This document shows positions 5,676 to 19,424 of a DNA stretch of 20,174 bases, one piece after another. Source of the DNA: a virus. Below the pieces are notes generated by a model. That model did not search any database. It was not told where the DNA came from and worked only from the letters and a program-made list of their open reading frames with translations. The stretch covers positions 1 through 20,174 of IMG/VR virus record IMGVR_UViG_3300031539_000405; one strand, written 5' to 3'. Numbering within the stretch: the first letter of the stretch is position 1; every line of letters begins with the position of its first letter. A program made the translations under genes and the position numbers.

Positions 5676-7868
5676 ATGGAAGAGTTTATTAAAAATATAC
5701 CTACTTGGAATAATGGTGTTTGGGAAACTACATCTTTTACATTAGATGAGTTTAAATCATTTATTACGGGGTTGTTTAAAGAACCTGGAAAATACCAGTT
5801 TGATCAAGATACGTTGTCTATTGGTAAACAAGAAGCTAATAGATTTGAAAAATTAGGATACTATTGTGCTAAACCTTTTAAATCAAAAGACTTTGTTGAT
5901 TACTGGAACCTGGAAAAAGAGAAATGTAGAAAAGGATTAATTATTAAAAACAATAATACTACTTGGTTTTTAACTCGGGATTATTATATGTGGTTAAACT
6001 TCTTACCTATTTTTGATAAAGAGAAAACTAAGTTTGGTTTTGCTAAATTGAGAGATGCTCAGTATCATATGGCTTTGTATGAACTTTTAGCAGAATTAAA
6101 TTATAAACATGCAGCTATTTTAAAAAAACGGCAAATTGCCTCAAGTTACTTTCATGCAGGTAAACTAATAAATCAGTTATGGTTTGAAGAAGGTGTTACC
6201 TTAAAAATGGGAGCAGCTCTTAAAGATTATATTAATGAAAAAGGTACTTGGAAATTTCTAGATGAATATGCTAACTTTTTAAATGAGCACACTGCTTGGT
6301 ACAGACCTATGAACCCTAAAAAGGTTCTTATGTGGCAACAGAAAGTAGAAGAAAAAGTAAATGGTAGAACTAAAGATAGAGGACTGAAAGGTACTATACA
6401 AGGTATGTCTTTTGAAAAAGATCCTACTAACTCTGTAGGTGGTCCGGTTAAATACTTTTTTCATGAAGAAGCCGGTATTGCACCTAAAATGGATCAAACT
6501 TATGAATACATTAGACCAGCATTAAAATCAGGATTTGTAACAACAGGGTTGTTTATAGCTGCAGGATCAGTGGGTGATTTAGATCAGTGTGAACCTTTAA
6601 AAGATATGATTGTAAATCCGGCATCTAATGATATCTTTTCAGTAGAAAGTAATTTAATAGATAATAAAGGTACATTGGGTTTATCTGGTTTGTTTATTCC
6701 TGAACAATGGTCAATGCCTCCTTTTATAGATGACTATGGTAATTCTAAAGTTGAAGAAGCTTTAAGTGCTTTAGAAGAACAATTTAGTAATTGGAAAAAA
6801 GATTTAACTCCGGAGCAGTATCAGTTAAGAATATCTCAGCATCCTAGAAATATAAAAGAAGCTTTTGCTACAAGAACGGTATCTAAATTTCCACAACACT
6901 TACTGTCACATCAAGCAGAAAGAATTAGAAATAAAGAATATCCTTATGAGTTCTTAGATATATTTTCAGATGGTCAGGGGAAACCCCAAGTAAAAATAAC
7001 AACTAAGTTACCTGTGTCTGAATTTCCTGTTTCTAAAAAAGCTACTGATAAAACAGGAGTTTTAGTAGTTTGGGAAAGACCTGTTGAAAACCCAGAATTC
7101 AATATGTATTATGCATCTATTGACCCGGTATCCGAGGGGAAAACAGTAAGCTCTGAATCATTGTGTTCTATATATGTTTATAAAAGAAAAATACAAGTTA
7201 AAAAAATTAACGGTACAGAAGTAACTACATATGTTGAAAGAGATAAAGTTGTTGCTGCTTGGTGTGGTAGATTTGATGATATAAATAAAACACATGAAAG
7301 ATTAAGATTAATCATAGAGTGGTACAATGCTAAAACTTTAGTTGAAAATAACATATCTCTTTTTATTAATTATATGATTGGTTTAAATAAACAAAAATAT
7401 TTAGTGAGAAGAGATGAAATGGTTTTTTTAAAAGAGTTAGGTTCTAATTTATCTGTATACCAAGATTATGGTTGGAAAAATACGGGACGGTTATTTAAAG
7501 ATCATTTATTAAGTTATGTAATAGAATATCTAAAAGAAAGTATTGATGAAGAAACAAAACCAGATGGAACAGTAGTTAAAACTACATATGGTGTGGAAAG
7601 AATTCCGGATCCAATGCTAATTGTAGAAATGCAAGCATATGAAGAAGGACTTAACGTGGATAGACTAGTTTCTTTTGCAGCATTAGTTGCTTATATTAAA
7701 ATATTAGAATCTAATACTGGTATAAAAGAGAGAGTTGAGAAAGATGATGCTGCTAAAAATTTGGAAAAGTCCACAAAATTGTATAAATTAAATAAGAGCC
7801 CGTTTCGGCATTTATCACCAAACAAAGCTCAAGGTGTAAGAAAAAGCGCATTTAAAAATCTTAAATAA
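5676..7868 (+). CDS. terL: Terminase large subunit (packaging ATPase and nuclease)
   Basis: 730 residues, the length expected of crAss-like TerL. The ATPase domain has a divergent Walker A at about 150-157 (KKRQIASS) and a Walker B, KYFFHEEAG, with catalytic E264/E265. The RNase H-like nuclease domain shows D483 in YYASIDPVSEG, E557 in TLVENN and D662 in NVDRLVSFAAL, the three expected acidic metal ligands. The enzyme cuts concatemeric DNA and pumps it into the prohead through the portal encoded immediately downstream (6-base gap). An N-terminal extension of about 140 residues precedes the ATPase core. The lack of the usual GK(S/T) in Walker A is seen in other terminases and does not suggest loss of function. 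The start ATG follows an A/T-rich leader without a Shine-Dalgarno site. Confidence 0.93.
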   Translation: MEEFIKNIPTWNNGVWETTSFTLDEFKSFITGLFKEPGKYQFDQDTLSIGKQEANRFEKLGYYCAKPFKSKDFVDYWNLEKEKCRKGLIIKNNNTTWFLTRDYYMWLNFLPIFDKEKTKFGFAKLRDAQYHMALYELLAELNYKHAAILKKRQIASSYFHAGKLINQLWFEEGVTLKMGAALKDYINEKGTWKFLDEYANFLNEHTAWYRPMNPKKVLMWQQKVEEKVNGRTKDRGLKGTIQGMSFEKDPTNSVGGPVKYFFHEEAGIAPKMDQTYEYIRPALKSGFVTTGLFIAAGSVGDLDQCEPLKDMIVNPASNDIFSVESNLIDNKGTLGLSGLFIPEQWSMPPFIDDYGNSKVEEALSALEEQFSNWKKDLTPEQYQLRISQHPRNIKEAFATRTVSKFPQHLLSHQAERIRNKEYPYEFLDIFSDGQGKPQVKITTKLPVSEFPVSKKATDKTGVLVVWERPVENPEFNMYYASIDPVSEGKTVSSESLCSIYVYKRKIQVKKINGTEVTTYVERDKVVAAWCGRFDDINKTHERLRLIIEWYNAKTLVENNISLFINYMIGLNKQKYLVRRDEMVFLKELGSNLSVYQDYGWKNTGRLFKDHLLSYVIEYLKESIDEETKPDGTVVKTTYGVERIPDPMLIVEMQAYEEGLNVDRLVSFAALVAYIKILESNTGIKERVEKDDAAKNLEKSTKLYKLNKSPFRHLSPNKAQGVRKSAFKNLK

Positions 7869-7874
7869 AAAAAT

Positions 7875-10631
7875 ATGCAAGTAGTTTCAGCAATGCAACT
7901 TAAGAAAGGTGTTAAATCTAAAGAAAATAGAATGGGTGCAATAACCCAGCCTTTACAGTTTTTACCAAACAAAGAAAAAGATAGAGAATGGGCAGCATGG
8001 AATCTTGATTGGCTTGAGTGGAACGGAGTAAAACAAATAAACAAAAAATCTAGAAGACTCTTAAAAAATTATAAGTTAGCTCAAGGTGTTATAGATAAAA
8101 CAGATTACATTGTAGAAGAAGATCCTGAGTATAGAGATGTTATAGAATATCTTACTCAAGAAGATGACACAGCTTTAGAGTTAAAATTTTATCCTATTAT
8201 TCCTAACGTTATAAATGTACTTACTTCAGAATTTGCTAAAAGAAATACTAAAGTAACTTATAGAGCTGTAGATGAGTATTCTTACAATGAGCTTTTGGAA
8301 CAAAAAAGAACAATGATTGAAGATGTTCTATTATCTGAAGCTCAAACTAAAATAATTGCTGCTATGATGGAACAGGGAATGAACCCTGAGTCAGAAGAAG
8401 CTCAACAACAACTTAATCCTGAAAATCTTAAGTCACTACCTGAAATAGAAAGTTTCTTTAAAAAAGATTACCGTTCTATGTATGAGCAGTGGGCAGAGCA
8501 CCAACACAGAGTAGATGTAGAAAGATTTAGATTTGAAGAGTTAGAGGAAAGAGGTTTCCGTGACATGCTTATTACAGATTCTGAATTCTTTCATTTTAGA
8601 ATGATGGAAGATGATTATGATGTTGAGTTGTGGAACCCTTTGCTTACTTTTTATCATAAAGCTCCGGGAACTAGATATATGTCAGATGCTCATTGGATTG
8701 GGAAAACAGAAATGATCACTGTAGCAGACGCTATTGATAAATATGGATATCTTATGACAGAAGATCAAATGGAGGCCTTAGAAGCAGTCTATCCTATAAG
8801 ATCAGCTGGTTATACAATAGGAGGTCAACAGAATGATGGTTCTTTTTATGATACTTCACGTTCTCATGAATGGAATACTAACATGCCTTCTCTAGCAATG
8901 AGACAATATACTTCAGCAGTAGGTCAAAGAGTAGCTGGAGGAGCAGATCCAATTAACCAAGTATTATATAACAGTGAAGATTTTGATAATGAGGGAACTG
9001 CGTATCTGGTACGGGAAACTGTTGTATATTGGAAATCACAAAGAAAACTGGGTCATTTAACTAAAATAGATGATACAGGAGATGTAGTTCAAGAAATTAT
9101 AACAGAGGATTATAAAGTATTAGATAAACCTGTTTATGATAATAGATTAATGAAAAACAAAACTAGAGATAATTTAGTATTTGGTGAACACATTGATTGG
9201 ATTTATGTAAATGAGGTATGGGGTGGTGTAAAATTAGGACCAAACTTACCTAGTTTTTGGGGGATGAATAATCCAGACGGATTTGCCCCTATTTATTTAG
9301 GTATAGATAAAAATGAAATAGGACCTGTAAGATTTCAATTTAAAGGAGATAACAGTTTGTACGGTTGTAAAATGCCTGTAGAAGGAGCTGTTTTTTCTGA
9401 TAGAAATACTAAATCAACTGCTCTGGTAGATCTTATGAAACCTTTTCAAATTGCATACAACTTAGTAAATAATCAAATTGCAGATATATTAGTAGATGAA
9501 TTAGGTACGGTAATTCTTTTGGATCAAAACGGATTGCCTAAACATTCTCTTGGTGAAGATTGGGGTAAAGGTAACTACGCTAAAGCTTATGTTGCTATGA
9601 AGAACTTCCAGATTCTTCCATTAGATACTACAATAACTAATACCGAAAACCCACTTAATTTCCAGCATTTCCAAAAACTAGACATGGAACAATCTAATAG
9701 ATTAATGTCTAGAGTACAGCTAGGGAATTATTTTAAACAACAAGCTTACGAAACTATTGGTATTACACCGCAAAGATTAGGTCAACAAATTGGTCAACAA
9801 GATACAGCTACGGGAATCCAACAATCTGTAAATGCGTCTCATGCTCAAACAGAAATGTATTTTATACAACACTCTGATTATTTAATGCCTAGAGTGCACG
9901 AGATGAGAACTAACTTAGCTCAGTATTATCAGTCTACAAAACCATCAGTAAGATTAACTTATCAAACTACTAATGAAGACAAAATAAACTTTGAAATTAA
10001 TGGTGTAGATTTATTACTTAGAGATCTTAATATATTTTGTAGTACTACAGCTAATCATAGATTTGTGTTAGAACAGTTAAAGCAAATGGCTATTTCTAAT
10101 AATACCACTGGAGCTTCTATTTATGATTTAGGTAGAGTTGTTCAATCTCAATCTATTTCTGAGCTTAATAGTGTAATAAAAGCTTCTGAAGAAAAAGTTC
10201 AACAACAAATACAACAAGAGCAAGCGCATCAACAAAAACTTCAGGAACAAGAAATACAAGCTAGAGCTGCAGAAGAACAAGCTAAACGTGATCAAACTGC
10301 TGCTGAAAAAGAAAAAGACAGAAGAAAAGATATTCTTGTTGCTGAAATTAGAGCTGCCGGTTACGGTGCTATGCAAGATGTGGATCAAAACTTACAATCT
10401 GATTATGTAGATTACATGGATAAACTTCAAGAATCAGAAAGATATCAGGCACAAACATCCTTACAAAGAGATAAGATGACTAATGATACTATGCTTAAAA
10501 CTGAAAAGCTTCAGATTGAAAGAGAAAAACTACAAGCTCAAAGAGAAATAGCAGAAAAACAACTACAAGTAGCTAAAGAAAATAAAAATAAATACGATTT
10601 TAAACCAGAAAAAAGTAAAGGAAAAGAATAG
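7875..10631 (+). CDS. Portal protein, crAss-like, with long coiled-coil C-terminus
   Basis: 918 residues, immediately after TerL. The middle region carries stretches typical of crAss-like portals, such as YDVELWNPLLTFYHK at 248-262 and the following SDAHWIGKTEMI. The portal forms the ring at one head vertex through which DNA passes and to which the neck attaches. Residues about 765-830 and 855-905 are very rich in Gln, Glu and Lys with heptad-like spacing, so the C-terminus is a long coiled coil; it may form a barrel extending into the capsid. That tail makes the protein longer than I would expect for the family. ATG 7875 is the first start after terL; M20 (ATG 7932) is possible. Confidence 0.88.
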   Translation: MQVVSAMQLKKGVKSKENRMGAITQPLQFLPNKEKDREWAAWNLDWLEWNGVKQINKKSRRLLKNYKLAQGVIDKTDYIVEEDPEYRDVIEYLTQEDDTALELKFYPIIPNVINVLTSEFAKRNTKVTYRAVDEYSYNELLEQKRTMIEDVLLSEAQTKIIAAMMEQGMNPESEEAQQQLNPENLKSLPEIESFFKKDYRSMYEQWAEHQHRVDVERFRFEELEERGFRDMLITDSEFFHFRMMEDDYDVELWNPLLTFYHKAPGTRYMSDAHWIGKTEMITVADAIDKYGYLMTEDQMEALEAVYPIRSAGYTIGGQQNDGSFYDTSRSHEWNTNMPSLAMRQYTSAVGQRVAGGADPINQVLYNSEDFDNEGTAYLVRETVVYWKSQRKLGHLTKIDDTGDVVQEIITEDYKVLDKPVYDNRLMKNKTRDNLVFGEHIDWIYVNEVWGGVKLGPNLPSFWGMNNPDGFAPIYLGIDKNEIGPVRFQFKGDNSLYGCKMPVEGAVFSDRNTKSTALVDLMKPFQIAYNLVNNQIADILVDELGTVILLDQNGLPKHSLGEDWGKGNYAKAYVAMKNFQILPLDTTITNTENPLNFQHFQKLDMEQSNRLMSRVQLGNYFKQQAYETIGITPQRLGQQIGQQDTATGIQQSVNASHAQTEMYFIQHSDYLMPRVHEMRTNLAQYYQSTKPSVRLTYQTTNEDKINFEINGVDLLLRDLNIFCSTTANHRFVLEQLKQMAISNNTTGASIYDLGRVVQSQSISELNSVIKASEEKVQQQIQQEQAHQQKLQEQEIQARAAEEQAKRDQTAAEKEKDRRKDILVAEIRAAGYGAMQDVDQNLQSDYVDYMDKLQESERYQAQTSLQRDKMTNDTMLKTEKLQIEREKLQAQREIAEKQLQVAKENKNKYDFKPEKSKGKE

Positions 10632-12034: not shown

Positions 12035-13651
12035 ATGAGTACACCAGTTTTAAACAATGGTATTTTTCTACGGGATACCGCTTACCAAGTAAGTTCACAC
12101 GTAGATTCTTATCACTTAGTTAATATGCTAAAAGACGCAGAGCCTATGGATATGGGACCTGTAGATCTTTGGGCTATGTCACAAAAAGTAGAGATGCCAC
12201 TTTATCAAATGGCTAACTTTGGTGGTAAAAACGTAATTATGGTTGACAATGCTCGTGGTGAGTATAAGTGGCAGACTCCTGTATCTCAGGATCTTCCTTA
12301 TATCATTGAGGATATTGAACCAGCCAATGAGTACAAAGGAGTAGATGGTACATCTTTCCGTATTAAACTTAACAAGCGTGAATTTGGTCACGGAGACATT
12401 ATTACTTATGATAAGTATAATGGTGTGGAACTTTACATTACTGATGAAGATATTCTTCCTACAGGTGATGGTTTTGTTTACACAGCTACTTTGGTGAACA
12501 ATGCTAATGCACGTTTTATTGAAAACCGTTTCTTGGCTTCTGGAACTAAGTTTTTCCGCAAAGGTTCTGCACGTGGTGAATACGGAGAAAGATTCTCTGA
12601 TATTTCTACAGGTGCTGGTTTCCGTGAATTCTACAACTTTGTAGGTAATGCTGAAGCTCACGTACATTATTCAATTTCTTCTCGTGCAGATTTGATGTTG
12701 AAAGGTGGTATGAATGCAGATGGTACAGTTCCTGTAACTGAAATCTGGAGAAACTTTGACCGTACAATGGATCCTTCTATTAACTCTTTGGAGGACATGG
12801 TTAAAGTTATGGGTAAAGATAAAGTGAAGAAAGCATTTGACAATGGTGATCTTTCTAGAACTTTCTTGACTCAAATGGAATCAGCACATTTGACTAAAAT
12901 TGCTAAAGACATTGAAACTTACTTGATGTGGGGTCACGGTGGTCGTGTACGTCAGGATGGTCCAGATGATGTTAGATTGTCTGTAGGTCTTTGGAAGCAG
13001 TTGGATAACTCTTTCAAGAGAATCTATAACAAGAATAACTTTACATTAGATTTGTTCCGTGGAGAAATCTATAACTTCTTTAATGGTAAAGTAGAATTTG
13101 AAGGTCCAGATCCAAAACGTCAATTGATTGTACAAACAGGTATGGCAGGTATGCGTTTGGTTAATGAGGCTATCAAAACTGAAGCTATTGCATCAGGTCT
13201 TGTTATCCAGGCTTCTGACATCGGGGCAATCACTGGTAAAGGTATGGACTTGAACTTTGGTTTTGCTTATACTTCATATGTAATCCCATTCCTTGCTAAT
13301 GTTAAGTTTGTTCTTAACCCAGCATTTGACAATGTTCATACTAATGACATTGAGAACCCAATCATTGATGGTTACCCACTTTCTTCTTACTCATTTATTA
13401 TCTTTGATATCACTGATAATACTAATGACAACATTTACTTGTTGAAGAGATCATGGGATCACCAATTGAAGTGGTGGTATCAAAATGGTACTATGGACTA
13501 TATGGGACGTAGCCAAGGTTTCCAATCTTCAGGTCAGTTTAATGGATACCGTGTAATGATGACACAAACTTATCCAGCTATCTGGGTTAAGGATCCATCT
13601 AAAGTATTGAAGATAGTTATGCGCAACCCTGTTACTGGCGGTTCGTTCTAA
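12035..13651 (+). CDS. Major capsid protein (crAss-like, HK97-fold)
   Basis: 538 residues. I recognise it as a crAss-like major capsid protein from its overall sequence, with blocks such as FRDTAYQ-like start (LRDTAYQVSSHVDSYHL), the FFRKGSARGEYGERFSD region near 180, and the ISSRADLMLKGGMNADG region. It would adopt the HK97 fold and form the icosahedral shell. The downstream terminator and the A-rich leader suggest strong expression of a discrete message. Arginine is often encoded by CGT or CGC and leucine by TTG, whereas neighbours such as the terminase use AGA and TTA, which suggests codon selection for high yield. No frameshift or truncation is seen. Confidence 0.9.
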   Translation: MSTPVLNNGIFLRDTAYQVSSHVDSYHLVNMLKDAEPMDMGPVDLWAMSQKVEMPLYQMANFGGKNVIMVDNARGEYKWQTPVSQDLPYIIEDIEPANEYKGVDGTSFRIKLNKREFGHGDIITYDKYNGVELYITDEDILPTGDGFVYTATLVNNANARFIENRFLASGTKFFRKGSARGEYGERFSDISTGAGFREFYNFVGNAEAHVHYSISSRADLMLKGGMNADGTVPVTEIWRNFDRTMDPSINSLEDMVKVMGKDKVKKAFDNGDLSRTFLTQMESAHLTKIAKDIETYLMWGHGGRVRQDGPDDVRLSVGLWKQLDNSFKRIYNKNNFTLDLFRGEIYNFFNGKVEFEGPDPKRQLIVQTGMAGMRLVNEAIKTEAIASGLVIQASDIGAITGKGMDLNFGFAYTSYVIPFLANVKFVLNPAFDNVHTNDIENPIIDGYPLSSYSFIIFDITDNTNDNIYLLKRSWDHQLKWWYQNGTMDYMGRSQGFQSSGQFNGYRVMMTQTYPAIWVKDPSKVLKIVMRNPVTGGSF

Positions 13652-14765: not shown

Positions 14766-14969
14766 ATGAAAAGTGTTAAAAAAACAAGTGTTAAAAAATA
14801 CCAAAAAGGTGCACAAACAGGGGCTACAAATGTAGGTAAAAGTACTACTACTAAAAAAGGTTCTATGGCAACAATGTCTAAAACACCTATTACCCCCAAA
14901 GCTGCATACGGGAGGGCTGTAAAACCAGGTATGATGAAAAAAGGAGGAACTGCTAAAAAATCTAAATAA
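14766..14969 (+). CDS. Small Lys-rich protein 1 (67 residues)
   Basis: Very basic, low-complexity protein dominated by Lys, Thr, Gly and Ala with no acidic residue at all. It ends in MMKKGGTAKKSK; the KKGG motif recurs twice in the next gene product. The first half has near-repeats of the form SVKK (KSVKKTSVKKYQKG). It is probably disordered and able to bind DNA or RNA by charge. It opens a run of seven mini-genes that continues to 16406. No family is recognised; a DNA-associated virion role is inference from charge and from position between capsid and connector genes. Confidence 0.65.
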   Translation: MKSVKKTSVKKYQKGAQTGATNVGKSTTTKKGSMATMSKTPITPKAAYGRAVKPGMMKKGGTAKKSK

Positions 14970-14977
14970 TAATTAAG

Positions 14978-15277
14978 ATGAGAAGTCCTAAACGCAAAGT
15001 TGCCAAATTAGAAAAAAAAGAAGATAAATTTCTGTATAAAGCAGACAAAGCTGTTGATGAAGGTAGACAAAGAAAAGCTGATAGACTTTATAGAAAAGCT
15101 GATAAAACCGGAAACCGTATAGCTGCTGCTAGTGCAAAGATAGACTCTGTAACAATGAAAAAAGGCGGATCAACTAAATCTTTTCCTGATCTTAATAAAG
15201 ACGGTAAAGTGACCAAAGCTGATATCCTTAAAGGTAGAGGCGTTATTAAGAAAAAAGGTGGAACTATTAAAAAATAA
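14978..15277 (+). CDS. Small basic protein 2 with EF-hand/dockerin-like calcium loop
   Basis: 99 residues. Residues 1-55 form a Lys/Arg-rich helix with a repeated K-A-D-K/R pattern (YKADKAVDEGR, RKADRLYRKADKTG). Residues 71-82 read DLNKDGKVTKAD, a good EF-hand or dockerin-type loop with Asp/Asn at positions 1, 3 and 5, Gly at 6, Thr at 9 and Asp at 12, followed by a short helix. KKGG occurs on both sides of it (61-64 and 92-95). A single calcium loop in a basic virion-type protein may be a Ca-dependent folding or docking element. I recognise this loop plus KGG context from other phages but know no function. The gene starts 8 bases after its neighbour. Confidence 0.7.
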   Translation: MRSPKRKVAKLEKKEDKFLYKADKAVDEGRQRKADRLYRKADKTGNRIAAASAKIDSVTMKKGGSTKSFPDLNKDGKVTKADILKGRGVIKKKGGTIKK

Positions 15278-15282
15278 TAATC

Positions 15283-15450
15283 ATGATTGGTAAAATGAAA
15301 AACCCTAATGACATGTCTGTATTTGAAGTACAGACTGTAGCAAAAGGAAGAGTAGGTGGAATCAGTGTTGCACCGGCTACTGCACAAATGAAGGCTAAAG
15401 GACGTGTAGGTGGTATCTCCAAAGCTCCTGCAAAAGCAATGCCTTGCTAA
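15283..15450 (+). CDS. Small basic protein 3 with internal duplication (55 residues)
   Basis: ATG 15283 to TAA 15448-15450, 5 bases after the preceding stop and directly before a terminator. The motif AKGRVGGIS plus two residues and P occurs twice, at residues 20-31 and 38-49, spaced by 18 residues. The two copies use different codons (for example AGA versus CGT for Arg and AGT versus TCC for Ser), so the duplication is old and the protein sequence has been kept by selection. That supports a real gene in spite of its size. It ends in a lone cysteine (AMPC). Function unknown; the Gly/Lys-rich composition matches its neighbours. Confidence 0.75.
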   Translation: MIGKMKNPNDMSVFEVQTVAKGRVGGISVAPATAQMKAKGRVGGISKAPAKAMPC

Positions 15451-15454
15451 CATT

Positions 15455-15486
15455 ACTTCCGGGATTAATTTCCCGGAAGTTTTTTT
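15455..15486 (+). terminator. Intrinsic terminator inside the mini-protein run
   Basis: Perfect 10-bp GC-rich stem (ACTTCCGGGA at 15455-15464, TCCCGGAAGT at 15471-15480), 6-base loop and T run at 15480-15486. It splits the mini-genes into a left group of three and a right group of four. Confidence 0.92.
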
Positions 15487-15496
15487 CTGAATAAAT

Positions 15497-15679
15497 ATGG
15501 CAAAGAGTAAAGTAAATGAAGCGGGTAATTATACAAAACCCGGAATGCGTAAAAAGCTTTTTGAAAAAATAAAAGCAAGTAGTAAAGGAGGAGATCCTGG
15601 AGAATGGTCCGCTAGAAAAGCACAACTACTTGCTAGTGAGTACAAAAAAAGTGGTGGTGGTTACAAAACTAAAAAATAA
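15497..15679 (+). CDS. Small basic protein 4, DUF5872-like
   Basis: 60 residues with the pattern AGNYTKPGMRKKLFEKIKAS, then GGDPGEWSARKAQLLASEYK and a Gly/Lys tail. I recognise this as the widespread short phage family usually labelled DUF5872, found in many large phages. Its function is unknown. The two helices with conserved W and Arg-Lys pairs suggest a compact nucleic-acid- or protein-binding domain. The start lies 10 bases after the terminator, and its stop overlaps the next start (TAATG at 15677-15681), so translation is coupled. Confidence 0.75.
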   Translation: MAKSKVNEAGNYTKPGMRKKLFEKIKASSKGGDPGEWSARKAQLLASEYKKSGGGYKTKK

Positions 15680-15921
15680 TGGCTAAAGCAGCATCACAAA
15701 AAAGTTTAGATAGGTGGACCAAACAAAAATGGACTACAGCTTCTGGAAAACCATCAGGAGAAACAGGAGAAGTGTATGCTCCTGCAAGAACAATTTCTAA
15801 ATTAAAAAGTAGTGAGTCTGGTAGAAAAAAATTAGCTGCTGCCAATGCTAAAAAAAGAGAAGCTACTAAACAAGGTAAGCAACATGCTAGTCATAACTTA
15901 CATAAGGGAAAAAAGAGATAA
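15679..15921 (+). CDS. Small basic protein 5, conserved phage family
   Basis: 80 residues. The first part, SLDRWTKQKWTTASGKPSGE, followed by TGEVYAPARTISKLKSSE, is familiar from short proteins that often accompany or fuse to the DUF5872-like domain. The rest is Lys/Ala-rich (KKLAAANAKKREATKQGKQ) and ends in HASHNLHKGKKR, with three histidines. The charge would allow DNA binding. Function unknown. Coupled to the previous gene by a TAATG overlap and followed by the next after 2 bases. Confidence 0.72.
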   Translation: MAKAASQKSLDRWTKQKWTTASGKPSGETGEVYAPARTISKLKSSESGRKKLAAANAKKREATKQGKQHASHNLHKGKKR

Positions 15922-15923
15922 CA

Positions 15924-16202
15924 ATGGCACAAAAGAAAACAGCTGCTTGGACAAGAAAAGAAGGAAAGAATGCAACAGGAGGTCTTAATGCAAAAGGTGT
16001 TGCTTCATACCGTAGAGAAAATCCGGGAAGTAAACTTAAAATGGCAGTAACTACTAAACCCTCTAAACTTGATCCTGATAGTAAAGATGCTAAAAGAAGA
16101 AAGTCTTTTTGTGCTAGAATGTCTGGGGTTAAGGGTCCAATGAAAGATGAAAAAGGAAAACCTACAAGAAAAGCACTTGCTTTGAAAAAATGGAACTGTT
16201 AA
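15924..16202 (+). CDS. Small basic protein 6, DUF6321-like
   Basis: 92 residues with the recognisable order AWTRKEGKNATGGLN, GVASYRRENPGSKLK, then KRRKSFCARMSGVKGPMKD and PTRKALALKKWNC. This matches, as I recall it, the short family called DUF6321, seen in phages and other large DNA viruses. C68 in SFCARMSG and the C-terminal C92 are fixed in the family as I know it and may form a disulphide or a metal site. The rest is Lys/Arg-rich. No function is established. It continues the mini-gene operon. Confidence 0.75.
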   Translation: MAQKKTAAWTRKEGKNATGGLNAKGVASYRRENPGSKLKMAVTTKPSKLDPDSKDAKRRKSFCARMSGVKGPMKDEKGKPTRKALALKKWNC

Positions 16203-16214
16203 TATTTTAATATT

Positions 16215-16406
16215 ATGAAAAAAAGTGAAAAGCCGTCAACCGGACTAACTAAAAAACAAAAGTCAGCTGTTGCTAAAAAAGCAAGTGCTGGAAAAGATAT
16301 TGGTAAAAAAGGTAAAAACTTTGACAAAGTAGCTGCTGCTGCAGGCGGAGGAGAAAAAGGTAAAAAAATAGCAGCAGCTGCAATGTGGAAAAATATTAAA
16401 AGATAA
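16215..16406 (+). CDS. Small basic protein 7 (63 residues)
   Basis: Sequence of the pattern KKQKSAVAKKASAGKDIGKKGKNF, then DKVAAAAGGGEKGKKIAAAAMWKN. I recognise the Kkqksav..kA..GkDiGkkGKnF signature from other phages, where it is likewise uncharacterised. The protein is almost a quarter lysine with a single helix-forming core; an antisense open frame exists only because of the repetitive Lys/Ala/Gly codons. The stop overlaps the ring-protein start (TAATG, 16404-16408), so its translation is linked to that of a structural gene. Confidence 0.7.
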   Translation: MKKSEKPSTGLTKKQKSAVAKKASAGKDIGKKGKNFDKVAAAAGGGEKGKKIAAAAMWKNIKR

Positions 16407-17104
16407 TGCTTAATCAAACAATTATATTAAAAATAAAACAAAGGTTAAATAAACTTGATTCTCAAGATTATGATAACATTGAAACCTGGGAAATTATTGA
16501 AGCTTTTAATAAAGCTCAAGTAGAGTGGACCAGAAGACAACTCCATGGCCTTAATATTGTTAAAGAAGGTGATGAACAATCTACTAGAAGAATAGATGAT
16601 CTTCAAGTATTACTTAATACAATTCCTGTTTCTTTGAATAATTCAGATCTTTACCAGTACGGTCCTATTCCGGAAAATTACCTACAATGGAAAAGATTAG
16701 ATGCTAAAGCTAAAAATGAATGTTGTCCGGATAGACAGCTAATGATTTATTTAGCAGAAGAAGGTAATGCAGTAGAGTTACTTAGAGATAAAGCTAAACA
16801 ACCTAATTTTGAATGGGCAGAAACGTTTGCTACATTAAAAGATAATAATGTGTTAATTTATAATAATGGAGAGTTTCAGTTAACTGATGCCTCTTTAACT
16901 TATTATAGACAACCTACAAGAATTGAAATAACGGGTGTAATTAATCCTTATACCACTACTGTTTCAACAGCTGATGTAGAATCAGTATTTAAAGATGATA
17001 TTGTTGAATTAATTGTAGATGAAGCTTTTAGCATTTTAGCGGGAGATATTGAATCTCCTAATCAAATGTCTAGAGGTATGCAAACTGCAGAAAGAAATAA
17101 CTAA
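16406..17104 (+). CDS. Head-tail connector / ring protein 1-like (crAss-like)
   Basis: 232 residues. Residues 5-48 form helices of the gp6-like adaptor kind (IKQRLNKLDSQDYDNIETWE, then IIEAFNKAQVEWTRRQL). The C-terminus carries ADVESVFKDDIVELIVDEAFSILAGDIESPNQ and a helix, which fits the conserved end of ring protein 1 in crAss-like phages as I recall it. Such proteins form the dodecameric ring below the portal. The middle is beta-rich (residues 95-185) with adjacent cysteines (CC at 106-107). It follows the mini-gene operon through a TAATG overlap and precedes the ferritin gene by 26 bases. The fold call is by pattern, so moderately sure. Confidence 0.7.
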   Translation: MLNQTIILKIKQRLNKLDSQDYDNIETWEIIEAFNKAQVEWTRRQLHGLNIVKEGDEQSTRRIDDLQVLLNTIPVSLNNSDLYQYGPIPENYLQWKRLDAKAKNECCPDRQLMIYLAEEGNAVELLRDKAKQPNFEWAETFATLKDNNVLIYNNGEFQLTDASLTYYRQPTRIEITGVINPYTTTVSTADVESVFKDDIVELIVDEAFSILAGDIESPNQMSRGMQTAERNN

Positions 17105-17130: not shown

Positions 17131-17754
17131 ATGGAAAAATCTAGAATGTTAAAAAGACCAGAAGTAATCAAATTGCCGGAATCTATTGGGATCCCTAATA
17201 TTGATAAGGCAAGTTCAGGAGCAACAAAAGAAATCCCTGACTTTAAAACAATGAATCCGTTAATTTCGGAAAAATGTGTAGAGTATCTTAACTACAGAAT
17301 TCAACAAGAAGAATATTCTTCAAGAATTTATATGGCTATGACAATGTGGTTAGACGAAAAAGGCTTTAAAGGAGCTGCTGCATTATGGAGAAATTATTCA
17401 GATGAAGAACTTACACATGCAGATATTGCGCGAAAATATTTATTATCTTTTGGTGTACAACCTGTGACTCCAAGATTAGATCAACCCCAACAAGATTTTA
17501 GAGGAAGTTTGCCTGAAATTATACAACTTTCTTATGAACACGAAATAGAGATTTCTTTTCAAATTAAGAAAATGGCAGATTATGCTTTAAGTATAAAAGA
17601 TCATATGCTATATGAATTGTGTCTTTCTTATTTAAAAGAACAAGTAGAAGAACATGATAAAATGCAAACGTGGGTAGACAAGTTAAAAACTTTTGGTACA
17701 GATCCATTAGCTTTAAGACTTTTAGATAACGACATGCAAGAAATTGCAAAATAA
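17131..17754 (+). CDS. Ferritin (FtnA-type, complete diiron centre) with N-terminal extension
   Basis: 207 residues. Residues about 42-205 align by eye with E. coli FtnA throughout the four-helix bundle. Ferroxidase ligands are all present: E60 (E17), E93 and H96 (E50, H53), E138 (E94), Q171 and E174 (Q127, E130), with E92 (E49), E170 (E126) and the conserved Y67 (Y24). Ferritins oxidise Fe(II) and store Fe(III) in a 24-subunit shell. The first 40 residues are extra relative to FtnA, Lys/Pro-rich and probably extended; ATG 17251 (M41) would give a normal-length ferritin. The gene sits between the ring protein and a probable virion protein in a structural operon, which is unusual. Base use is like the neighbours, so it is not a very recent import. 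Confidence 0.92.
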   Translation: MEKSRMLKRPEVIKLPESIGIPNIDKASSGATKEIPDFKTMNPLISEKCVEYLNYRIQQEEYSSRIYMAMTMWLDEKGFKGAAALWRNYSDEELTHADIARKYLLSFGVQPVTPRLDQPQQDFRGSLPEIIQLSYEHEIEISFQIKKMADYALSIKDHMLYELCLSYLKEQVEEHDKMQTWVDKLKTFGTDPLALRLLDNDMQEIAK

Positions 17755-17831: not shown

Positions 17832-19424
17832 ATGGCTTATTTTAATCACGCATTTCGCAAAACGTTCCTTGCAACAGGAACCACGCGCACTTCAGTACCT
17901 GTAGTAAACCTAGATGGTTCTGCTGCTACAGCTACAACTGATGGTGCATTGTTAGTTACTGCAGGTTTACCTACAGTAGTTCTTAATCAATTGTCTAAAG
18001 TAGCTAAAGCTGCTGGTGTTCCTCGTACATCAGGGTATGTTGGTTTCTTTAGCCCAGAAACTCATTTGAGTGTAGTGAGTCCTTCTAGGTGTTGTCCTTT
18101 GTATATTGCTGGTTCAGCAATTCAAGCAAATGACAAAATCGGTCCTTTCCACGGTGGGTATACTGAAACTAATAAATCTAAGACAATTAACCCTAAGTAT
18201 GTATCACGTTTGTACTATCAAGAAGCATGTCCTGCTTCTAATGAAGTAGTACACGTTGGTAATACTCAATTTACAGGAGGTTTGGTTACCGGTATTTCTA
18301 TTTTGACTCCGGGTTCTGATTTAACTGATGGTACCGTTACTATTACTTTAGAACAAGCAGGAAATCCAGCTGGATTAGGAGCTACTGCAGAATTAACAAT
18401 TGCTGGTGGTATAGTAACAGCCGTTACAATTTTAACGCCAGGTAGTCAATATCTAGGAATTACAACAATAGCTGATGCAGCTATTCCAGGTGATCCTGGT
18501 GCTGTTCAACCTACTTTTACAGTTAATGTTGGTCCATCTGCTGAGTGTAATTCAACATTTTTGTGTAACGAAACTTACTCTTTACGTGTAGATATTAAAG
18601 GTTCTCCTGTATTGCGTTTCTTGAACCGTAATACATACTTTACAGCTGACGCTTATACAGGATGTTGTCCTGATGATGCTATTGCTCCAGTACCTGTTGA
18701 TTCAACTTTGGTATACATTGAGTGGGCTAAGCAATTGGTCGGTTCTCCATTAATTTCTCCATTTATTCAAATTGTAATTACTGCAGCTGATGGTACATTG
18801 CTTTATGCTCCGGGTACAGTAGGTGCTGCAAATACTTGGGATACATATGTATCTCCTGGTTATGTAACAGGACAAGTAGCAGGTATGACAATTTTTGGTG
18901 CATATGTTGATACTAAATTTGGTGACTGTACTTTCCAAACAAGTGATTTCTTTGAGAAAGAGCCTGTTAAAATTTACACATCTATGGTAGACTATACAGG
19001 TGATCCATGTGAATTTCAAGGATTGTGTGTAGTTAAAGAATGTGAAGCCAAACAAGCAGAAGGTTTTGGTGAGCAAGTTGCTCGTGACTTTATCTTGTCT
19101 GAAGCGTACCGTCAGAATTTCTTCCATAGTGATTTGAGAATTCGTGAGATTACTCAAGGTAACCAAATTCTAGAAGATGTTGACCGTTCTGCACAATATG
19201 ACAGAGTGTTCTTGTTGCATAGTGTTCCACGTTTCAACAATCCTTCTTCTACATTTGATAATGATCAATACTTGTTAGAGTTTGTTGGTTCAGCTGCATC
19301 TTTAGGAGAATTGTTTGCTGATCTAGGAGCTTGGTTGGAAGACTGTGGTACTTGTAACATTGAATCTTTTGATTGTTCAGATCCTTGTGAGTCAATAGTA
19401 CCTGTGGTACCTGTGATTGACTAG
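17832..19424 (+). CDS. Probable virion structural protein, Cys-rich, with inserted repeat domain
   Basis: 530 residues. Long Ala/Thr/Val/Gly-rich beta-type sequence typical of phage virion proteins. Residues about 147-237 look like an inserted domain: VTGISILTPGS (152-162) and VTAVTILTPGS (195-205) are near repeats 43 residues apart, of the kind found in phage tail and capsid decoration modules. Outside it, VDIKGSPVLRFLNRNTYF and the CC pairs (87-88, 278-279) belong to the core. There are 15 cysteines, four in the C-terminal CGTCNIESFDCSDPC (505-519). Arginine is often CGT as in the capsid gene, suggesting high expression. It could be a decoration, tail or fibre-type protein; I cannot decide. 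A strong terminator follows. Confidence 0.6.
   Translation: MAYFNHAFRKTFLATGTTRTSVPVVNLDGSAATATTDGALLVTAGLPTVVLNQLSKVAKAAGVPRTSGYVGFFSPETHLSVVSPSRCCPLYIAGSAIQANDKIGPFHGGYTETNKSKTINPKYVSRLYYQEACPASNEVVHVGNTQFTGGLVTGISILTPGSDLTDGTVTITLEQAGNPAGLGATAELTIAGGIVTAVTILTPGSQYLGITTIADAAIPGDPGAVQPTFTVNVGPSAECNSTFLCNETYSLRVDIKGSPVLRFLNRNTYFTADAYTGCCPDDAIAPVPVDSTLVYIEWAKQLVGSPLISPFIQIVITAADGTLLYAPGTVGAANTWDTYVSPGYVTGQVAGMTIFGAYVDTKFGDCTFQTSDFFEKEPVKIYTSMVDYTGDPCEFQGLCVVKECEAKQAEGFGEQVARDFILSEAYRQNFFHSDLRIREITQGNQILEDVDRSAQYDRVFLLHSVPRFNNPSSTFDNDQYLLEFVGSAASLGELFADLGAWLEDCGTCNIESFDCSDPCESIVPVVPVID

Follow-up and report, generated by a model that had tools for sequence, protein, structure and literature searches.

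A ferritin gene in a crAss-like phage occupies a slot among the virion genes in which proteins from two branches of the ferritin superfamily stand in for one another behind a common N-terminal tip. We read its product as an iron-oxidising cage that is made late, carries an N-terminal address peptide specific to the lineage and is probably virion-associated. We give this reading a probability of about 0.5, and the virion association taken by itself is an inference of about the same 50% likelihood. A phage ferritin in itself is not new; the swappable slot with its common tip is the novel part, and the gene taken singly adds a new member, unusually placed, to a known family. We found no description of a ferritin at this crAss-like genome position in open-licence papers, and the statement in the first-pass annotation that none was known holds for that literature.

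The window is the whole stretch of 20,174 nucleotides that was analysed, and it makes up the entire source record. Capsid, terminase and portal families are all present (Table 1), and by gene content we assign the window to a crAss-like phage (Crassvirales). It has distant similarity to the Cellulophaga phages phi17:2 and phi4:1 and to csAssE-Sib, in which the relative of the ring gene carries the annotation "ring protein". The first-pass annotation had put the ferritin gene in a structural rather than a metabolic block, between a ring/connector gene and a probable virion gene. The placement is correct, as the gene sits in the crAss-like virion block, and the upstream neighbour is indeed a virion/ring protein. 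The product of the downstream gene had no match in Pfam, PHROGs or phage records, though virion genes flank it and its position is conserved. This 530-aa late protein is cysteine-rich. Only 26 bases separate the ring and ferritin genes. No intrinsic terminator was found between them, nor any terminator-like site up to the downstream gene, and promoter-like sites were not above chance. In two isolates no small gene follows the ring gene: in phi17:2 it is directly followed by the large gene for structural protein gp063, and in Leptolyngbya phage Lbo-JY46 by a large hypothetical-protein gene. Lbo-JY46 (L252) infects a cyanobacterium, outside the usual Bacteroidota host range, and carries crass-like capsid (27.8%) and ring homologues. 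Six small lysine-rich ORFs lie in a row in the window (14766-16406), from the capsid-adjacent gene to the ring gene. One of them is a DUF6321 protein (4e-25), and the order and content of the run vary among relatives.

Table 1. Features of the window and of the second-lineage pair L257/L260, with coordinates, strand and basis.
Feature	Position	Strand	Basis or remark
Terminase large subunit	5676..7868	+	phrog_6681, 4e-62
Portal protein	7875..10631	+	phrog_6547, 2e-84
Major capsid protein, Crassvirus-type	12035..13651	+	PF23898, 9.6e-30
Tail-ring/connector virion protein, upstream neighbour	16406..17104	+	phrog_29507, 3e-10; anchor of the slot census
FtnA-type ferritin, 207 aa, five-helix core	17131..17754	+	Pfam, structure matches, alignment, AlphaFold model, Foldseek
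Tip MEKSRMLKRP, common to DUF5856 proteins of the same slot in relatives	17131..17160	+	Sequence comparison
Linker, about residues 11-45, low confidence, probably disordered	17161..17265	+	Length and sequence vary between relatives
Ferroxidase residues E60, Y67 (helix A)	17308..17331	+	Alignment
E92, E93, H96 (helix B; sites A, B, C)	17404..17418	+	Alignment
E138 (helix C)	17542..17544	+	Alignment
E170, Q171, E173, E174 (helix D; sites B, C)	17638..17652	+	Alignment
Conserved late gene, 530 aa, downstream neighbour	17832..19424	+	Position kept in relatives; no database match
Ferritin-bearing 548 bp	L257 3716-4263 vs L260 4160/4161		DUF5856 present in both phages

The ferritin reading frame is open over its 207 aa, and stops crowd its reverse strand. 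Its product passes the curated Pfam cut-off for Ferritin (PF00210, 2.1e-24; 86.5 bits, cut-off 24.5), which answers the profile search that the first-pass annotation had proposed. It also matches solved bacterial ferritins (V. cholerae 3qz3, 7e-26; E. coli 1eum, 1.3e-18). With the intact ORF, these matches uphold the call of a complete FtnA-type ferritin far beyond chance. The protein matches NCBIfam PRK10304 (non-heme ferritin, 1.8e-20), but its 73.5 bits fall below the equivalog cut-off of 178 for this E. coli-type FtnA family. We therefore class it, by sequence, as an FtnA-type ferritin and not as an FtnA orthologue. A further match is to phrog_16594, an unlabelled phage family. The E. coli (1eum) and V. 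cholerae (3qz3) FtnA proteins have in common with the phage protein a fold of five helices (target TM 0.91-0.92) and every A, B and C site residue. They differ in that identity is about 30-35% and that the phage protein has an N-terminal extension of at most some 46 residues and a virion-gene setting.

The metal ligands named in the first-pass annotation are all correct. In the alignment E60, Y67, E93, H96, E138, Q171 and E174 correspond to E17, Y24, E50, H53, E94, Q127 and E130 of FtnA, and the third-iron-site residues E92, E170 and E173 are present too. These ten site A/B/C residues are invariant across 15 phage homologues and E. coli FtnA. The E. coli row is presumably the true FtnA sequence; solved E. 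coli FtnA entries match the phage protein independently. With the full residue set present, the sequence bears out the claim of ferroxidase competence, and the protein is close to certain to be an enzyme with an intact catalytic site. The AlphaFold model of the single chain has helices at residues 47-76, 80-106, 127-154, 158-188 and 192-206, that is, the four-helix bundle and the fifth C-terminal helix of FtnA-type ferritins. Blocks up to residue 40 average a pLDDT of 31-51, and the core reaches 77-95 except for 66-73 at residues 111-130. Foldseek returned bacterial ferritins with target TM scores of 0.86-0.93, the best hits at 0.91-0.92. Structure prediction, which had been suggested as a way of exposing a missing site, thus gave a bacterial ferritin fold, with the metal residues intact by alignment.

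The gene is not a unique insertion in one genome, as about 50 distinct homologues occur in three slots. For a census of the slot behind the ring gene we gathered relatives of the ring protein without regard to ferritin, at least 509 in all, and used the 80 nearest to it. The slot holds a DUF5856 protein in 62 of these 80, nothing in 12 and ferritin in 6. Ferritin does recur beside the ring gene, but only in these 6 of the best 80 of at least 509. Such a frequency rules out that ferritin is a fixed virion component of the clade. The 12 empty slots among the same 80 show that the iron cage is dispensable. In whole-contig searches most ring-lineage contigs carry ferritin alone or DUF5856 alone. 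One contig (L011) has both, and nine, mostly short fragments, have neither. On the ring-gene tree the state of the slot changes at least 11 times, with 4 changes forced by well-supported branches; this is a quick tree with several long branches, and some of its ferritin rows were taken from the ferritin search.

The other tenant of the slot is a protein of about 150-175 aa that matches DUF5856 (about 1e-14) and phrog_858. Its model has a pLDDT of 83.8, and a fold search returned Dps-family proteins in 50 of the 50 PDB matches listed, at modest E-values (best 1.3e-3). Its invariant H49, H61, D76 and E80 align with H25, H37, D52 and E56 of the Dps-family protein HP-NAP. Both the predicted fold and the H-H-D-E ligand positions of the Dps family are therefore found in it, and we predict that DUF5856 is a ferroxidase cage of Dps type. 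Because of this predicted Dps-like fold and these aligned ligands, the exchange in the ring slot is one between members of two ferritin-superfamily branches. DUF5856 resembles the window ferritin in slot, tip and predicted ferroxidase cage. It differs in belonging to another branch of the superfamily, in its Dps-type fold and shorter length, and it is absent as a tenant of the window. In T4-like phages DUF5856 goes by the names rI.-1 or mobD.6 and is not named as a virion gene. The Yersinia jumbo phage phiR1-37 carries a homologue (g280, L254 3989-4345, 1.7e-22) that is a "phage structural protein" by record annotation alone. The RefSeq name of g280, "starvation-inducible transcriptional regulator", also used for phrog_858, is probably misleading.

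Ferritin and DUF5856 proteins of the ring slot begin with a short common tip (approximately MEKPRMLKR) that is followed by a probably disordered linker. The window protein has MEKSRMLKRP and that of L107 has MEKPRMLKRI. In 15 aligned DUF5856 proteins L7, K8 and R9 are invariant and the residues right after them are scrambled. The motif was first noticed by eye and the following counts are descriptive. The tip core is present in 39 of 44 distinct slot ferritins and in 48 of 49 distinct slot DUF5856 proteins. Elsewhere it was found in 66 of 692 other late genes, or in 22 of 591 once the downstream neighbour g26 is left out (44 of 101 g26 starts match, probably through an unrelated F-K/Q-K start). 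The latter count rules out that the tip is a general late-gene start. In two ring-lineage contigs of about 115 kb each (G004, G012) the tip is unique to the slot gene, apart from a looser match in one small basic late protein. The kept leucine, lysine and arginine show synonymous codon changes: the tip leucine of DUF5856 is TTA in 35, CTA in 6, CTT in 6 and TTG in 1, and the tip arginine of ferritin is AGA in 30, CGT in 3, CGA in 2 and CGC in 2. The kept codons are biased to A and T, and there may be a nucleotide-level contribution to tip conservation.

The similarity between ferritin tips and DUF5856 tips falls with ring-gene distance (r = -0.54; 0 of 2000 permutations as extreme, in a permutation that ignores relatedness among the rows), whereas the 12 linker residues after the tip have no relation to it (r = +0.15). 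Since relatedness is left out of the permutation, more weight belongs to the difference between tip and linker. It follows from this difference that the tip stays with the phage locus and not with the type of cage, and that the cage behind it gets exchanged. The tip is maintained across ring proteins that differ at half their residues.

A second lineage repeats the arrangement. Its capsid, portal and terminase show only about 21-26% identity with those of the window (MCP 22%), and its ferritins are 55-62% identical to the window ferritin and sit between the portal and scaffold genes. A capsid-based search of this lineage recovered members with just one of the two cage genes, be it ferritin or DUF5856, members with both, in either order, and members with neither. 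Tips are unlike those of the ring lineage, yet common within the lineage, and often read MALDIN. Both cage proteins begin with MALDINK in L024 and L272. In L257 the tips are MALDINS and MIDINKP, and GATATAAACA directly follows the start codon in both cage genes. Some members lack a shared tip (MALPAFTN, MKELKF). Around the site L257 and L260 share 98-100% identity, and the ferritin is a precise 548-bp presence/absence between them, with L260 lacking it (Table 1). This near-identical pair offers a natural comparison with and without ferritin. In the ferritin tree L024 falls among ring-slot ferritins (96 and 98%), but it bears the tip of its own lineage. From this nesting and this tip we conclude that ferritin genes travel between distant crass-like phages. 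In a third lineage the ferritin gene lies upstream of the terminase, near tail and lysis genes, and is without the LKR tip. A GroES-type co-chaperonin (PF00166) stands beside DUF5856/ferritin in the portal-scaffold interval of three contigs (L267 4467-4727, 6.5e-23; L268 4428-4730; L269 4424-4726). In phage DSL-LC05 GroES is just ahead of the portal gene and DUF5856 just behind it.

We propose that the ferritin would be produced late, off the virion operon, just after the tail-ring protein. Like FtnA it would assemble as a 24-subunit cage that oxidises and stores Fe(II) with oxygen or peroxide. By homology to ferritin and Dps cages, the conserved tip on its flexible linker would project outward. 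It could then serve as a lineage-specific address peptide linking either a ferritin or a DUF5856 cage to a virion or assembly partner, and the cage may shield phage DNA from iron and peroxide during assembly, perhaps within the particle. These steps, from late timing, cage assembly and catalysis to docking, packaging and protective benefit, carry different weights. Late production and removal of Fe(II) and peroxide are likely, given that the protein found most often in place of ferritin is Dps-like. The slot exchange, the common tip and the repeat in a second lineage favour iron and peroxide handling tied to particle production, and suggest that these phages need some iron cage while building particles. 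They may also attach it to the particles. The position in three lineages, the address-like tip and the annotation of g280 as a structural protein point to a link with the particle; an empty slot and the chance that the common tip DNA is a recombination scar speak against one. A 12-nm cage is too large for an intact portal or tail channel.

The most serious competitor, though one we doubt, is a soluble late stress gene. The ferritin would then be an auxiliary metabolic protein, free in the cytoplasm against late Fenton chemistry and co-transcribed with virion genes by chance, and the tip would be the mere 5' end of the locus, left by recombination just past the start codon. Neighbouring cage genes do have short identical stretches just past their start codons, and the precise 548-bp difference between near-identical phages fits such recombination. 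Ferritins and other reactive-oxygen genes of freshwater phages have already been interpreted as defence against reactive oxygen (PMC6802176), and the Dps and catalase of gut phages likewise (PMC8008677). A recombination remnant sits poorly, however, with an LKR tip that persists through synonymous codon changes while the adjoining linker is scrambled, and that is retained across such divergent ring proteins. Nor does chance co-transcription sit well with a gene whose neighbours in three lineages are late structural or lysis genes.

The tip could also belong to a basic N-terminal tail that coats phage DNA like the tail of E. coli Dps, with ferritin acting as a Dps-like protector. Ring-slot tips are indeed basic (e.g., METLKRPIKKSHNP and MEALKRPMRKSRNP) and the proteins that ferritin replaces are Dps-like in predicted fold, but basic character is missing from second-lineage tips like MALDINK, and a generic DNA tail needs neither a fixed three-residue core nor lineage-specific sequences. 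We consider this DNA-binding role unlikely. Far less probable still is a supply of iron for virion parts, as the first-pass annotation suggested, or for host entry, with tail proteins that would then be mistaken for siderophores. Adjacency to the tail-ring gene is all that favours it. The protein is a cage-forming ferritin type and not the iron site of a tail protein, it trades places with Dps-like proteins, which are known for detoxification, and 12 of the best 80 of at least 509 relatives have an empty slot. An address-bearing cage remains our preferred reading.

Genes with which phages handle iron and peroxide tend to be classed as scattered metabolic extras. Two iron cages that swap behind one tip, in two distant lineages, would instead mean that the particle or its production gains from an iron cage. 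The same comparison gives a probable function to DUF5856, a phage-common Pfam family of unknown function. Gut phages, Gratiaviridae among them, encode Dps and Mn-catalase, which are proposed to limit reactive oxygen (PMC8008677). Like the window ferritin these are phage-encoded enzymes of the ferritin superfamily in phages of Bacteroidetes. They differ in being other enzymes in other phages, and the consulted passages of that account describe neither slot exchange nor a common tip. In crAss001 both capsid and tail of the particle contain zones of protein cargo; those identified are gp45, gp46 and RNA-polymerase subunits, and ferritins are not among them (PMC10172136).

Encapsulins load ferritin-like cargo into HK97-fold shells via a short terminal peptide (PMC8346489). 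The phage cages have a conserved tip of this kind, and its binding to the inner shell is putative. The encapsulin targeting consensus SDGSLGIGSLKRS contains LKR, as does the phage tip, and a three-letter match of this sort is weak (PMC8346489). The phage case differs from encapsulins in that the tag is N-terminal and the shell is a DNA-filled capsid, to which docking is putative. Only tentatively, then, do we extend our reading to an encapsulin-like loading of iron cages into or onto crass-like particles via the lineage-specific peptide, with ferritin and Dps-like cages as interchangeable cargo. The common capsid fold and the ferritin-like cargo also found in encapsulins make this link testable.

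The phage ferritins group in a single clade with good support; it sits on a long branch, separate from 25 Bacteroidota ferritins. Across 295 Bacteroidota genomes the best match to the window ferritin was in Maribacter (44%), with all others at or below 37%. A recent capture of a host ferritin is ruled out by this best match in 295 genomes and by the long branch of the phage clade. The Maribacter orientalis ferritin (L188 5998-6507) is the only Bacteroidota one inside the phage clade. Because it is tail-less, stands among ordinary chromosomal neighbours and nests with phage proteins, it may be of phage origin, moved from phage to bacterium. A ferritin match of 60% in a Tissierellales MAG lies on a 5.5-kb contig, which is probably phage sequence in a bin.
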